Shown: positions 18,395 to 28,654 of the stretch, piece by piece
Position numbering within the stretch: position 1 is the first letter of the stretch
Layout of the letters: every line of letters begins with the position of its first letter
Position numbers and translations under genes: made by a program
The notes under the pieces: generated by a model
Databases searched by the model: none
What the model saw: the letters and a program-made list of their open reading frames with translations, nothing else
Told to the model about the DNA's origin: nothing
Source of the DNA: Candidatus Schekmanbacteria bacterium
GTDB taxonomy: Bacteria > Schekmanbacteria > GWA2-38-11 > J061
NCBI GenBank assembly: GCA_016219965.1
Contig: JACRJM010000009.1
Coordinates: 62,001 to 126,000 of the forward strand
Direction of reading: 5' to 3'
Length of the DNA stretch: 64,000 nucleotides

Positions 18395-20614
18395 ATGAAA
18401 AAATCACTGGAATTTTCAAAAAATAAAGCTCTCTTCGGATGGGATGAGGAAGAAGGGATTGTAGCTGTAGAGTTGAAAAATGACAGCACAGTTGAGATAT
18501 TTTCAAGAAAAGGGGATGTTGTCTCGTCAAGGGCGGAGAGCTTTGAGCCTTTTATACTTCTGAGTAAAGAAGATTATCTTGTCTGTCTTGATGAGAAATT
18601 TGATGTCGAAGAACTCGAAGGAAACAACTTCTTCAAATATCTTGTAGTATTCAAATCATGGGGATCGCTTCTTCGTGCAAAACAGCATCTGCAGAAGGTA
18701 AGCGGAGAACCGCCGTCAAGCCAGAGAGCCCCCTATCTTTTTCTGAATGATCCCATCCATCAGTATCTGCTTCGTTCCGGCAAAACCCTGTTCAAAGGTA
18801 TGGATATGACATCGGCAAGCAGGATTCAGCTTGATATCGAGACATACTGCGAAAAAGGGTTTGAGTTTTCAAATCCTCTTCGTGAAAAAGACAGGATTAT
18901 TTCAATAGCCCTGTCTGACAATCATGGATTTGAGTATGTAATAGACGGCTCAAAGATGGATGAAAAGGAAATGCTCATTGAATTGGGCAGTATTATCGCT
19001 GAGAGAGATCCGGACATAATCGAAGGTCATAACATATTCAAATTTGATATGGAGTACATATCTGCAAGAGCTAAGCTGAAGAAGGTGGATTTAAAATGGG
19101 GGAGGGGAGGGAAAAAGATTGAATCCCATGCATCGAGGGTGGTTTTTGCTGAGCGTACAATTGCTTATCCAAAATGGGAAATTTATGGGAGACATATAAT
19201 AGATACCTACCTTCTTGCACAGGCTTATGATATCGCTGCCCGGGAACTTGACGAGTACGGGCTTAAAAGTATTGCAGTCCAGATGGGGATTTCTTCATCT
19301 GATCGAGTTTACATAGAGGGGAAAGACATAGCTTCTGTTTTTGACAATGAACCGGCAAAACTTTTTAAATATAATCTTGATGATGTCAGGGAAACCAGAG
19401 CACTTGCAGAACTTTTCGGAGAAGGGTATTTCATAGAATCGCAGATATTCCCGTATTCTTACCAGAATATCATAGTCCGCGGTAATGCCACAAAAATTAA
19501 TTCCCTCTTTATGCGTGAGTACTTATATAGAAGGCACTCTATCCCTCAGATAGCTGAGCAGCGTATAGAGATAGAAGGCGGCTATACGGATATTTTCAAG
19601 ACAGGGGTGATAGAGCGTGTTCTTCATTGCGATGTCCGCTCACTTTATCCCTCCATAATGATAAATGTCGGGATTAAACCCGCATCCGATGATCTTGACA
19701 TATTTTTGAATCTCCTCAGAGACCTGCGTGATTTCAGGGTTAAAGCTAAGAAAACAGCACTTGAAGCAATGGATGAGAATACCCGCAAATATTATAATGC
19801 CCTGCAGGGAGCATTCAAGATATTGATAAATTCATTTTATGGATACCTCGCCGCCGGGTTTTCCAACTTTGCAGATTTTAAGAGTGCTGCGGAAGTTACT
19901 GCAAAGGGGCGTGAGATTATTAAATCAATGCTTGGATGGCTTAACGAGAAGGGATGCCAGCCAATAGAGATAGATACAGACGGCATCTATTTTGTTCCCC
20001 CGGAAAGTGTCAAAACAAAAAAGGAGGAAGAGGAAATTATCCGAGAGCTTTCAAAAACGCTCCCAAGCGGAATAGAAGTTGAATTTGATGGAAGATACAA
20101 ATCTATGTTCAGTTATAAAATTAAGAACTATGCACTTCTCGATTACAACGGAAAGCTTTTCATTAAAGGTTCAGGTTTAAAATCAAGGGGGCTTGAGAAG
20201 TTCCAGAGGGAATTCCTCAAAAAAATGATTTATCTGATTCTAACCGGTAAGGGAAGTGATGTTCCATCTCTTTATGATGAATATATAAGGAAAATAAGGT
20301 CTCACAAATTTGATATTAACATGCTCTCAAAAACAGAGACTCTTTCGGATTCAGTTGAAATGTACAAACAGAAGACATCGGGGAAAAAGAGGAATCTTTC
20401 CGCTTCCTACGAGCTTGCGTTAAAATCAGCGAGAAACTACCAGCCGGGAGACCAGATATCTTATTATGTGACCGGCACGAAAAAGAAGGTTACTGTTTAC
20501 GAATCATGTAAGCTTGCAAGTGAATGGGATAAAATGCAGCCCGATGAGAATGTTGAATATTACTGTTCTAAGCTGGATGATTTGTACTCGAAGTTTCAGG
20601 AGATGTTGTTGTAA
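18395..20614 (+). CDS. Family B DNA polymerase with 3'-5' exonuclease
   Basis: A 739-residue family B polymerase. The exonuclease domain shows Exo I (QLDIETY, Asp near residue 147), Exo II (EGHNIFKFDMEYI) and Exo III (KYNLDDVRETR). The polymerase domain shows motif A (CDVRSLYPSIM, near 413), motif B (KILINSFYGYLA, near 470) and motif C (EIDTDGIYF, near 528), all with their metal-binding Asp residues, so it is predicted active and proofreading. It is shorter than E. coli Pol II (783 residues) and the motifs resemble the compact archaeal-like bacterial PolB forms. Family B enzymes in bacteria serve repair and restart at damaged forks. It stands alone with no replication partner genes nearby. 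No LexA-type box is recognised upstream. Confidence 0.93.
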   Translation: MKKSLEFSKNKALFGWDEEEGIVAVELKNDSTVEIFSRKGDVVSSRAESFEPFILLSKEDYLVCLDEKFDVEELEGNNFFKYLVVFKSWGSLLRAKQHLQKVSGEPPSSQRAPYLFLNDPIHQYLLRSGKTLFKGMDMTSASRIQLDIETYCEKGFEFSNPLREKDRIISIALSDNHGFEYVIDGSKMDEKEMLIELGSIIAERDPDIIEGHNIFKFDMEYISARAKLKKVDLKWGRGGKKIESHASRVVFAERTIAYPKWEIYGRHIIDTYLLAQAYDIAARELDEYGLKSIAVQMGISSSDRVYIEGKDIASVFDNEPAKLFKYNLDDVRETRALAELFGEGYFIESQIFPYSYQNIIVRGNATKINSLFMREYLYRRHSIPQIAEQRIEIEGGYTDIFKTGVIERVLHCDVRSLYPSIMINVGIKPASDDLDIFLNLLRDLRDFRVKAKKTALEAMDENTRKYYNALQGAFKILINSFYGYLAAGFSNFADFKSAAEVTAKGREIIKSMLGWLNEKGCQPIEIDTDGIYFVPPESVKTKKEEEEIIRELSKTLPSGIEVEFDGRYKSMFSYKIKNYALLDYNGKLFIKGSGLKSRGLEKFQREFLKKMIYLILTGKGSDVPSLYDEYIRKIRSHKFDINMLSKTETLSDSVEMYKQKTSGKKRNLSASYELALKSARNYQPGDQISYYVTGTKKKVTVYESCKLASEWDKMQPDENVEYYCSKLDDLYSKFQEMLL

Positions 20615-20666: not shown

Positions 20667-21437
20667 TTACTGCTTTTTCCGTTGCCAGATTGCCAATCCC
20701 AGAATACCAGCACCGAGCAGAATGATTGTCGTTGGTTCCGGTGTGGGACGTACATTTGTGACAACAATCTGCGGTTCACTTAATCCTGTGCCGTATTGGA
20801 AAAGTACAGAAGATATCTGATTTAGGGAAAAGGCTGAAGGGAGTCCTCCCAAAGTAAAAATCACTGAATTCTTGATTAACGGAGTTCCTCCGGTTACCTT
20901 TGCATTACCTGTTGTAATTATATCTCCCGCTGAAAGAATACCATAATTAAGACCATCCGGGTCCGCTGGAAAATCAAGGTAATTGCTACCATGTGAAGTA
21001 TCAAATCTGTCGCTGGGACCAAATAATCCGAGCCCTGAGCTTGATATTCCCTGCGTTGCCCCATTTGACATTGATAAACCATTTTTGTAAGCCCATTCGC
21101 TTCCAACATCTCCCCCAACAGGGACTGGAGGTGTAGTGTCGAAATAGTATGTGCTCCCCGAATCAATTATAGCAGATATCTTTGTTAATTCCGGATCTCC
21201 TGTGATACTGAAAAAAAGAGCAGTCAACACATCACTTGGGGCCAAAACATCATTGGTGCTGGTGTTAGTAAGTGTTACTTTGAGGTTTCCTCCAACAATA
21301 TCGAATGTTGCACTTGCGCTCAACAGACCGTCAGACCCGTTAAAAGTAATCGGTGTGGCAATTGCTTGAAAAGGAATAGTTACAAAAAAAATTAATATTC
21401 CAGTAATTAATGCTAATATGTATTTCGTTTTGCTCAT
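20667..21437 (-). CDS. PEP-CTERM surface protein, copy 1
   Basis: A 256-residue secreted protein with an N-terminal signal peptide (ILALITGILIFFVTIPFQAIA) and a C-terminal sorting signal: PEPTTIILLGAGILGLAIW followed by RKKQ. PEP-CTERM tails are processed by exosortase, which usually works with an extracellular polysaccharide locus. The mature part begins PITFNGSDGLLSASATFDIVGG and is beta-rich, clearly related to the second PEP-CTERM gene upstream (PIEF...SASASIDVIGG). GAGGGGGG lies close before the ATG. A sigma-54 promoter and two upstream dyads precede it. No exosortase gene is in the window. Confidence 0.9.
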   Translation of the reverse strand: MSKTKYILALITGILIFFVTIPFQAIATPITFNGSDGLLSASATFDIVGGNLKVTLTNTSTNDVLAPSDVLTALFFSITGDPELTKISAIIDSGSTYYFDTTPPVPVGGDVGSEWAYKNGLSMSNGATQGISSSGLGLFGPSDRFDTSHGSNYLDFPADPDGLNYGILSAGDIITTGNAKVTGGTPLIKNSVIFTLGGLPSAFSLNQISSVLFQYGTGLSEPQIVVTNVRPTPEPTTIILLGAGILGLAIWQRKKQ

Positions 21438-21475
21438 ACCCCCCTCACAAATTATATTTATACGTATATATATTA

Positions 21476-21492
21476 CGCAAATTTTGTTCCAA
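21476..21492 (-). promoter_or_regulatory. Sigma-54 (-24/-12) promoter of PEP-CTERM gene 1
   Basis: On the minus strand the sequence is TTGGAACAAAATTTGCG, with GG and GC separated by exactly 10 bp as required for RpoN. It differs from the TGGCAC-N5-TTGC consensus mainly at one base. Transcription would start near 21465, 28 bp before the start codon. Confidence 0.75.
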
Positions 21493-21600
21493 ATAACAAA
21501 ATAAGTAATAAAAAATATTATAACATATTGATTTGATTGACTTAATATGTGGCTATGATTTGTATAAAAAACTATATTTTTGTTATTAATAATAAAAAAG

Positions 21601-21617
21601 TGTTAAATTACCCGACA
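21601..21617. promoter_or_regulatory. Proximal activator dyad, PEP-CTERM gene 1
   Basis: TGTT-N9-GACA, part of a longer near-palindrome beginning AGTGTT and ending GACACT. It lies about 125 bp upstream of the sigma-54 promoter centre, a normal place for an enhancer-binding-protein site. Confidence 0.55.
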
Positions 21618-21665
21618 CTAATTTATTCTAAAAGATTGACTATCAATAAAATCAATGGGTTATAA

Positions 21666-21682
21666 TGTCAAAAAAACCGACA
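21666..21682. promoter_or_regulatory. Distal activator dyad, PEP-CTERM gene 1
   Basis: A perfect TGTC-N9-GACA dyad 65 bp beyond the proximal one. The block 21643-21682 that contains it matches the distal block of the other PEP-CTERM gene (22772-22811) at 33 of 40 positions. Confidence 0.6.
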
Positions 21683-21746
21683 CTTTGCAGCTAATATGGC
21701 TATAATAATATTGGGCAGGTTGGTTTTTAAACAGATATTTTAGCTT

Positions 21747-22559
21747 TTAATGTTTTCTGGATATATACCCTTTTGCTCCTAAACCAATTAAACCTAACAA
21801 AACCATTAACATTGTAGAAGGTTCAGGTACTGGTGGAATATATGTAGTTGAATAAAAATATATATCAGAGCCAAACTCGAATGTAATTCCGTCCTGGAAT
21901 ATATAGGAAAGGGTGCTGGATGCGCTTTCAGGATTGTTAAGGTCAACTCCCATTATATTAAGATTAGCTGTAACGGAATTACAGATTGCTCCCAGTCCTC
22001 CTAAATCAACAGCATTATTTGTTAATCCCCCCTGCGGTCCATCAAGATTTATAGTACCATCAAGGTTTGTTCCCGGAGGAATCATTAAAAAAGGAGTTGT
22101 ATGAGTTTGCATTGCAGAAAAAAAGTTTACATGTTCTATTGCGGGGTCTCCTGCAGGAAGTTGAGCAGTCAGTATTTCATCTCCATTATTGCCAAAGCCA
22201 TACTCTGAGGACACATCTGCTCCACCCGTCAATGATATTGCTCCACCTGTTTTTGTTTTAAAATTTTCAGTATAACTTTCCGGACTTATTAAAACTGTGC
22301 CGCCCGTTATTGACGCTGAATCAGGAAGGTCAAAGTATAGTGCCGTAAGAAGGCTATTTGCAGCATTCGTATCCGGAGCGCCCGTTGAAGTGTTGCTCAA
22401 GACTATAACCAACTGTCCACCAATTACATCAATACTCGCAGAAGCCGAACGTCCGCTTGCTTCACTAAAGCTGAATTCAATAGGAGTGGCAAAAGAGTTT
22501 GTTGCCGCAAAAATTATTATCAGTAATATTAACAAAATACTTATATTGAATTTTTTCAT
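21747..22559 (-). CDS. PEP-CTERM surface protein, copy 2
   Basis: A 270-residue paralogue of the downstream PEP-CTERM protein. It has a signal peptide (ISILLILLIIIFAATNSFA), a beta-rich mature part that begins PIEFSFSEASGRSASASID, an interior NTSTGAPDTNAANSLLTALYF segment aligning with NTSTNDVLAPSDVLTALFF in copy 1, and a C-terminal PEPSTMLMVLLGLIGLGAK plus basic tail. The first 100 residues align best between the two; the middles diverge. It would be exported, sorted by an exosortase and released or anchored at the surface, probably with exopolysaccharide. It has its own sigma-54 promoter and two dyads, so it is a separate transcription unit from copy 1. Confidence 0.9.
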   Translation of the reverse strand: MKKFNISILLILLIIIFAATNSFATPIEFSFSEASGRSASASIDVIGGQLVIVLSNTSTGAPDTNAANSLLTALYFDLPDSASITGGTVLISPESYTENFKTKTGGAISLTGGADVSSEYGFGNNGDEILTAQLPAGDPAIEHVNFFSAMQTHTTPFLMIPPGTNLDGTINLDGPQGGLTNNAVDLGGLGAICNSVTANLNIMGVDLNNPESASSTLSYIFQDGITFEFGSDIYFYSTTYIPPVPEPSTMLMVLLGLIGLGAKGYISRKH

Positions 22560-22624
22560 CTTAAATTCTCTCTTATTATATAATATTTTATTATTAATAA
22601 ATTACTATTCTTAAATTAGATATA

Positions 22625-22640
22625 TGCAAGTTTTATGCCA
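22625..22640 (-). promoter_or_regulatory. Sigma-54 (-24/-12) promoter of PEP-CTERM gene 2
   Basis: On the minus strand TGGCATAAAACTTGCA matches the RpoN consensus TGGCAY-N5-TTGCW completely, with the obligatory 10 bp between GG and GC. It lies about 66 bp before the start codon. Confidence 0.85.
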
Positions 22641-22726
22641 TATCTGCTGATCATGGATTAACGCATTGTTTTATTAGACTAATATGTGTGAGGGTAATTA
22701 TAATATATCTATCAATAGGTAATAAA

Positions 22727-22743
22727 TGTCCTAATTTTAGACA
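22727..22743. promoter_or_regulatory. Proximal activator dyad, PEP-CTERM gene 2
   Basis: A perfect TGTC-N9-GACA dyad about 102 bp upstream of the sigma-54 promoter centre. Confidence 0.55.
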
Positions 22744-22794
22744 ATTAGAACATGACCTTTTTGCTCACAATTCAATTAAATCAATGTGTTAGTA

Positions 22795-22811
22795 TGTCCA
22801 AAAACCCGACG
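22795..22811. promoter_or_regulatory. Distal activator dyad, PEP-CTERM gene 2
   Basis: TGTC-N9-GACG, 68 bp beyond the proximal dyad. It lies within a 40-bp block (22772-22811) conserved with the control region of PEP-CTERM gene 1. Between this site and the mtnP start (23047) I see only a TTGACA box at 22960-22965 and the mtnP ribosome binding site. Confidence 0.6.
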
Positions 22812-27328: not shown

Positions 27329-28654
27329 ATGGAAAAAAATTATGGTCTTATTCTTGATAATATTCCTGATGGAATACTTGTAATGGATATCCAAAAACAT
27401 ATTACATTTATTAATTCAGCTGCAAACAGGCTTCTCGGGGTAAATCCTGGCACAGTGATTGGCAGGATATGCGGGAGCGTTTGCAAGTTTGCAAGCTGCA
27501 GAAACAACTGTCTTCTTGAGAGAACGCTCCAGACCGGAGAGAACATTAATAATTATGAGACTGAGATATTGACTCCTGAAGGGAATCTTATAGCTGTTAG
27601 CATAAACAACTCTCTTCTTTTTGACAGCTCAGGCAAACCCTCCGGTTCTGTCCATGTTATGAGGGATATCTCGCAGGTTAAATTCCTCACCGAGAAAATA
27701 GAAGAGAAATATTCTTTCAACAATATTGTTGCTAAAAACTACAAGATGAAAGAGATATTCGAGATTCTTCCGGCAGTCGCACAGACAAAAACCACTGTTC
27801 TCATAGAGGGTGAGAGCGGCACAGGAAAGGAACTTATTGCTGAAGCAATACACTATAACAGTCCGCGCAAGGGTGGGGCGTTTGTAAAAGTTAACTGCGG
27901 GGCCCTTGCCGAAGGGATCCTTGAAAGCGAGCTGTTCGGACATGTGAAAGGAGCATTCACAGGGGCGATAAACAATAAGATAGGAAGGTTTGAGCTAGCC
28001 AATAACGGGACTATCTTTCTTGATGAAGTCGGGGATATGAGCCAGGGCCTTCAGGTTAAACTTCTCAGGATTTTACAGAATGAGGAGTTCGAGAAGGTCG
28101 GGAGCACTAAAAACCAGCGCATTGATGTGAGAGTGATTGCAGCAACAAACCGCAATCTTGAAGAACTTATAAAGAAGGGGGAATTCAGGGAAGACCTTTA
28201 TTTCAGACTTAGCGTTGTTCCTATCATGCTTCCTCCATTAAGGGAACGCAGAGATGACGTCCCGCTTCTTATAAAGCATTTCATGTTAAAGCTTAACAAA
28301 AAACTCTCAAGAAACGTCAATAATATATCCCCGAAGGCAATGGAGTTTCTCATGAATTATGAATATCCCGGAAATGTAAGAGAACTTGAGAATATCCTTG
28401 AGCATTGTATAGTGGTGTGCAGAGACAACACAATCCTCATAGAGCATTTTCCTAAAAAGCTGTTCAATATTTCCTCTGATCCTCTTGAAAAAGCCCTTGC
28501 AAGCGATGATCCCATGAGAATAGTTGAGAAAGATGTTATCACACGCATATTGAAGCAGAGTAACTGGCGTTACCAGGAAGTCGCAAAAAAGCTTAACATA
28601 AGCAGAACATCGCTTTGGAGAAAAATGAAAACTCTTGAAATAAGGAAGCCTTGA
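27329..28654 (+). CDS. Sigma-54-dependent transcription activator with N-terminal PAS domain
   Basis: A 441-residue NtrC-family enhancer-binding protein. Residues 1-115 form a PAS sensor (LDNIPDGILVMDIQKHITFIN) that contains a cysteine cluster C-x3-C-x4-C-x3-C (CGSVCKFASCRNNC). The AAA+ domain has Walker A GESGTGKE, the sigma-54 contact loop GAFTGA, Walker B TIFLDEVGDM and the arginine-finger region FREDLYFRL. A Fis-type helix-turn-helix (EVAKKLNISRTSLWRKM) ends the protein. There is no receiver domain, so control is by ligand or redox sensing in the PAS domain and not by phosphorylation. GAGGGGG precedes the start. It is a possible, unproven regulator of the PEP-CTERM promoters 5 kb away. 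Confidence 0.93.
   Translation: MEKNYGLILDNIPDGILVMDIQKHITFINSAANRLLGVNPGTVIGRICGSVCKFASCRNNCLLERTLQTGENINNYETEILTPEGNLIAVSINNSLLFDSSGKPSGSVHVMRDISQVKFLTEKIEEKYSFNNIVAKNYKMKEIFEILPAVAQTKTTVLIEGESGTGKELIAEAIHYNSPRKGGAFVKVNCGALAEGILESELFGHVKGAFTGAINNKIGRFELANNGTIFLDEVGDMSQGLQVKLLRILQNEEFEKVGSTKNQRIDVRVIAATNRNLEELIKKGEFREDLYFRLSVVPIMLPPLRERRDDVPLLIKHFMLKLNKKLSRNVNNISPKAMEFLMNYEYPGNVRELENILEHCIVVCRDNTILIEHFPKKLFNISSDPLEKALASDDPMRIVEKDVITRILKQSNWRYQEVAKKLNISRTSLWRKMKTLEIRKP

Follow-up and report, generated by a model that had tools for sequence, protein, structure and literature searches.

A PrsR-type sigma-54 control module with paired sites and IHF-like elements precedes two PEP-CTERM genes and recurs across a Schekmanbacteria genome

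The closest described relative of the control regions studied here comes from Haft et al., who in 2006 reported a 17-nt motif (motif 1) together with a sigma-54 motif (motif 2) in Proteobacteria, with an assignment to PrsR (PMC1569441). In their account, the site ends in ACA, is sometimes repeated and lies upstream of sigma-54 PEP-CTERM promoters in genomes that carry PrsK, PrsR and PrsT. The system that they described is one of Proteobacteria only, in which the site ends in TTTACA, stands 62.8 nt (32–92) from motif 2 and has few other targets. Rajeev et al. (2011) showed by DAP-chip that DVUA0057, the protein that Haft et al. took as PrsR of Desulfovibrio vulgaris, binds the five PEP-CTERM promoters; by their own statement, a validated motif was lacking (PMC3333781). 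Kazakov et al. (2015) predicted that DVU0110 and DVUA0057 have a motif in common (PMC4641369). The pepA gene of Aquincola tertiaricarbonis is RpoN-dependent, with a mapped sigma-54 start and a predicted enhancer upstream (PMC9850573).

Within the 64-kb stretch of Candidatus Schekmanbacteria DNA analysed here (the window), which spans C9:62001–126000 of the genome, two adjacent minus-strand genes encode PEP-CTERM proteins. Gene 1 (20667–21437; 256 aa) encodes an XDD4-family exosortase-dependent protein scoring 240 bits against NF045504 (cut-off 40) and 22.8 against TIGR02595 (cut-off 16). Gene 2 (21747–22559; 270 aa) is XDD4-related, with 50 bits against NF045504 (cut-off 40) and 20.7 against TIGR02595 at C9:83774. 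As the earlier note had proposed, each gene is preceded on the minus strand by an RpoN promoter with GG-N10-GC spacing, TGGAACAAAATTTGCG at 21476–21491 and TGGCATAAAACTTGCA at 22625–22640, and the four upstream dyads lie exactly where it had placed them, 65 and 68 bp apart within the pairs. We scored these dyads with a matrix built from 20 other sites of the genome, with the four window sites held out. Upstream of gene 1, the proximal PrsR-type site TGTCGGGTAATTTAACA (21601–21617, minus strand; score 20.3) lies 109 bp from the promoter and the distal site TGTCGGTTTTTTTGACA (21666–21682, minus strand; 25.0) lies 174 bp from it. For gene 2, the corresponding distances are 86 bp for the near-symmetric proximal site TGTCCTAATTTTAGACA (22727–22743, plus strand; 16.4 on the plus and 17.8 on the minus strand) and 154 bp for the distal site CGTCGGGTTTTTGGACA (22795–22811, minus strand; 22.7). 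These dyads are far above chance: they are the top four in the window, with best-strand scores of 17.8–25.0 and the next match at 13.8. The window also encodes a bacterial family B DNA polymerase (18395–20614, plus strand) that curated models match weakly.

Both regions also carry IHF-like elements, which were absent from the earlier note. The E. coli IHF consensus is WATCAANNNNTTR. Gene 1 has exact matches at 21521–21533 (AATCAATATGTTA, minus strand), 42 bp upstream of the -24 element, and at 21650–21662 (AATCAATGGGTTA, plus strand), 3 bp from the distal site on its promoter side. Gene 2 has an exact match at 22779–22791 (AATCAATGTGTTA, plus strand), at the same 3-bp distance on the promoter side of its distal site, and a weaker one at 22659–22671 (AAACAATGCGTTA, minus strand; matrix score 14.6, one consensus mismatch), 31 bp upstream of the -24 element. 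Much of the identity between the distal 40-bp blocks (21642 and 22771) is due to these elements; the blocks agree at 33 of 40 positions, where the best shuffled matches average 20.7 and reach at most 26. This agreement, in front of neighbouring genes that are both XDD4-related, would fit a recent joint duplication of genes and upstream DNA in which the dyads are incidental, and the module had been read as one copied with the genes. Copying is not supported as the main explanation, however, since about 33 further promoters, most of which serve unrelated genes, carry these elements at the same spacings; this rules out duplication as the sole cause. The proximal regions, moreover, share no comparable block: their best 40-mer match (25 of 40) is within the shuffled range and corresponds to the border of the distal block. 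That the two regions are alike through duplication alone is thus hardly credible.

Across the genome (3.58 Mb, 18 contigs), TGTC-N9-GACA occurs 118 times versus 76 for its reversed control, an enrichment so modest that we dropped it as a site definition. The dyads themselves are real and enriched; what had to be revised is their form, which is an asymmetric 17-mer, TGTCGGATTTTTGRACA, with G2, T3, A15 and C16 invariant among 24 sites. The definition that we used instead, TGTCGG-N7-RACA, gives 48 occurrences versus 6 for the reversed control. Further sites were drawn from a sequence profile for which 150 of 1728 candidates were scored, so weak sites may be missing from the count. The earlier note had named enrichment close to the sigma-54 promoters of PEP-CTERM and polysaccharide genes as the support to look for, and this enrichment proved strong: 54 of the 57 scored sites lie 64–216 bp upstream of a correctly oriented GG-N10-GC promoter, at 35 promoters. 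A 55th (C3:375183) adds a third copy to a promoter already counted, about 374 bp upstream of it, and the remaining two (C3:34544 and C10:49990) fall inside open reading frames. One pair is on the wrong side.

Thirteen of the 35 promoters serve PEP-CTERM genes, and all 13 carry the TGT-N11-ACA 17-mer. The genome encodes 19 PEP-CTERM tails, one truncated by a contig start, so that these 13 stand against 18 genes with readable upstream DNA. A 14th gene (L006) follows closely behind L007 in an apparent operon, and four others (L008, L014, L016 and L017) have neither dyad nor sigma-54 promoter in their upstream DNA. L014 is XDD4-like by eye, which indicates that the module is not brought by the protein family alone. 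The other 22 promoters lead mostly to secreted surface proteins, and to an exopolysaccharide (EPS) cluster by way of a diguanylate cyclase. Their targets include SBBP/TSP3/DUF7948, FG-GAP and SdrD-B proteins, CARDB subtilases, multicopper-oxidase-like and cytochrome c-like proteins, and an AraC regulator. Because these loci were chosen by their dyads and not by their promoters, the promoter association there is an independent test. Several of the non-PEP-CTERM proteins (L032, L037, L048, L082 and L083) share a lysine-rich C-terminal tail like EDIDSNTGPTQHDAVKVEVTAKKVKTKKK, without a membrane helix, which is possibly another sorting or anchoring signal.

The layout of these promoters is ordered. 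Two sites are present at 19 of the 35 promoters and one at the other 16, and no consistent hidden proximal site appeared at the single-site promoters. Within pairs, the spacing is 62–68 bp in 13 of 19 cases, with others at 20, 31, 41, 100 and 110 bp (the last twice), and the site nearest the promoter lies 64–187 bp from it (at most 92 nt in 12 of the 35). Proximal distances gave their best helical phasing near 11 bp (Rayleigh p about 3e-5); several periods were scanned and phasing at 10.5 bp was weak (p 0.02), so we do not rely on it.

The IHF-like element AAATCAATANGTTA is found on the downstream side of the distal site and ahead of the -24 element, and it fits the IHF consensus. At 17 of the 35 promoters it is in forward orientation, precisely 15 bp past the distal site, and at four, including those of both window genes, it is inverted and 3 bp past that site; 23 copies sit 29–32 or 39–42 bp ahead of the -24 element. 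The untrained IHF consensus finds 21 matches in 18 promoters, versus 2.1 in shuffles, and a density of 0.60 per 260 bp, against 0.043 in AT-matched DNA. A trained matrix finds 56 in 32 of the 35 (3.4 shuffled), a figure inflated by the training. An IHF-alpha-like protein is encoded (113.1; cut-off 111), as is an IHF-beta-like one just below its cut-off (112.9; cut-off 115). The genes of this pair are located at C1:172499 and C15:411985. The core of the AATCAATANGTTA element is more conserved than IHF requires, and the element keeps a base-pair-exact distance from the distal site, features that would suit the target of a different DNA-binding protein or an additional part of the PrsR footprint. 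We consider this unlikely, since the element matches the IHF consensus, can be inverted and also occurs before the -24 element, at a distance from any dyad, in a genome that encodes IHF-like proteins. NifA/NtrC-type promoters likewise place IHF between enhancer and -24 element, and share with the present module the order of enhancer, IHF bend and sigma-54 promoter. The NifA site, however, is TGT-N10-ACA whereas the present one is TGT-N11-ACA and so falls outside the NifA definition, and the module here has two IHF-like positions locked to base-pair resolution. A literature search on IHF and PEP-CTERM returned, by title and abstract, nothing on such promoters.

The link to PrsK/PrsR and RpoN drawn in the earlier note is borne out by the presence of the whole Prs cluster. 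EPS genes, exosortase, EpsI, PrsK, PrsR and PrsT lie together at C15:41–76 kb, and the last five all exceed their cut-offs (PrsK 417.7 bits against 300, PrsR 544.9 against 502.6, PrsT 562.5 against 312.2). The prsR gene occupies C15:70072–71400. At the EPS end (L039:4039-7194), a site (27.8) and a sigma-54 promoter precede a diguanylate cyclase gene, behind which lies an XrtA/PEP-CTERM export protein gene; this cyclase at the EPS head would tie c-di-GMP to a PrsR-type switch. No 17-bp site was found at prsKR itself (L045). The genome encodes about 19 full-length NtrC-type sigma-54 activators, so another of them could bind the sites while the Prs genes control something else. One lies in the window itself (27329–28654, plus strand), a PAS-AAA+-HTH protein 4.8 kb from gene 2. 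Its recognition helix, ISRTSLWRKMKTLEI, is nevertheless unlike that of PrsR, in a comparison covering a minority of the genome's own activator paralogues, and the sole activator above the PrsR cut-off is the one in the exosortase/EPS cluster. Further, TGTCGG sites recur upstream of PEP-CTERM and EPS genes in N. vulgaris, whose PrsR (585 bits) has a nearly identical recognition helix (VSRPTFYDLLRKHGIE versus VSRGTFYDLLKKHGIE) and, in strain Hildenborough, binds PEP-CTERM promoters (PMC3333781). Assignment of the sites to a different activator is therefore improbable, and the proposal that they are sites for an enhancer-binding protein is supported, with PrsR the predicted binder.

The system is conserved within the phylum. 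PrsR exceeds its cut-off in all four genomes of the phylum examined, which contain 15, 4, 4 and 1 composite sites versus 1, 0, 0 and 0 reversed, or 9 versus 0 for the three other than our own. In 56 distant genomes, 55 of which are without a PrsR above cut-off, the composite site occurs 11 times versus 3. In G001 and G003, PEP-CTERM promoters carry sites that the matrix from our genome scores as high as 31.1, more than any site in its training set. The layout recurs in these two genomes, which belong to other genera: L095 has dyads at 109 and 171 and IHF-like elements at 41 and 156, L106 has dyads at 106 and 171 and IHF-like elements at 40 and 156, and L101 has dyads at 85 and 151 and an IHF-like element at 30.

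Several more distant cases were considered. A protein of G030 (C73:40599-41933) scores above the PrsR cut-off despite a different recognition helix, so the curated cut-off may be too loose; with no PEP-CTERM gene found and no composite site, we rejected G030 as a second PrsR phylum. The motif is absent at a Patescibacteria-labelled XDD4 homologue (L028, WARV01000024.1), whose protein is 51% identical to that of gene 1, a case of transfer or of a mislabelled contig. On an Alteromonas plasmid, no site precedes the sigma-54-like matches. G036, with no PrsR above cut-off, has two TGTCCA-N8-ACA sites (C3:14427 and C14:61139), with further TGT...ACA copies, before sigma-54 promoters, perhaps the work of another activator with a similar site.

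These comparisons place the module beside the known systems. The earlier note knew of no published site of this form, but motif 1 of Haft et al. already describes one (PMC1569441). A Vibrio plasmid carries TGTCGATATATTTTACA 72 bp ahead of a promoter, ending in TTTACA in the same register as the present 17-mers. Compared with the Haft system, the module here is built on TGTCGGATTTTTGRACA, often paired, with its nearest site at 64–187 nt, with IHF-like sites and with 22 non-PEP-CTERM promoters, in another phylum. We file it as a variant, because a spacer beyond 32–92 nt, a reported range and not a stated rule, is a quantitative difference. The DVUA0057 regulon resembles it in PrsR, in sigma-54 promoters and in TGTCGG-N8-ACA sites at PEP-CTERM promoters of strain DP4, where TGTCGGAAAAGGCAACA and TGTCGGATAGGTTGACA stand ahead of a PEP-CTERM gene with a sigma-54 promoter. 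That regulon, however, comprises six operons versus 35 promoters here, and the IHF-like array was not found at the one DP4 promoter scanned. Aquincola tertiaricarbonis pepA also combines a PEP-CTERM gene, a sigma-54 start and an upstream predicted enhancer, but in a single gene of a Proteobacterium, with only a presumptive role for PrsR.

Taken together, both window regions very probably belong to a genome-wide PrsK/PrsR sigma-54 regulon, whose sites, promoters, spacings, IHF-like elements, membership, conservation in the phylum and Prs genes are read directly from the DNA. We infer PrsR and IHF occupancy, looping and an inducing signal as follows. PrsR is a response regulator that combines an AAA+ domain with a Fis-type HTH. 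It would bind each 17-bp site as a dimer, and a pair of sites separated by about six helical turns would nucleate the active oligomer. IHF, bound close to the distal site on its promoter side and about 30 or 41 bp ahead of the -24 element, would bend the DNA and so let this oligomer touch sigma-54 polymerase, a contact that would drive ATP-dependent opening. A single signal to PrsK would then activate the exopolysaccharide cluster jointly with surface proteins, both those with PEP-CTERM and other secreted ones.

The window finding is real, and the module represents a variant, larger and more ordered than had been described, of a control element already known. Three things are new: a PrsR-type module in a non-proteobacterial phylum, a regulon that reaches beyond PEP-CTERM genes to a large share of the cell surface, and an IHF-like element, AAATCAATANGTTA, at locked positions repeated in two other genera. 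The PrsR site has stood as a prediction since 2006, and in 2011 its motif still awaited validation; the 35 promoters here, with about 55 sites, suffice to define that site, the rules of its spacing and a putative IHF partner. The same set allows non-PEP-CTERM surface proteins and EPS genes that share a common signal to be predicted, makes cooperation between PrsR and IHF directly testable and extends the system past Proteobacteria. It is reasonably likely that a fixed-geometry PrsR-IHF-sigma-54 array is the general control unit of this phylum's cell-surface programme, covering exosortase substrates, non-PEP-CTERM secreted proteins, and exopolysaccharide and c-di-GMP synthesis.
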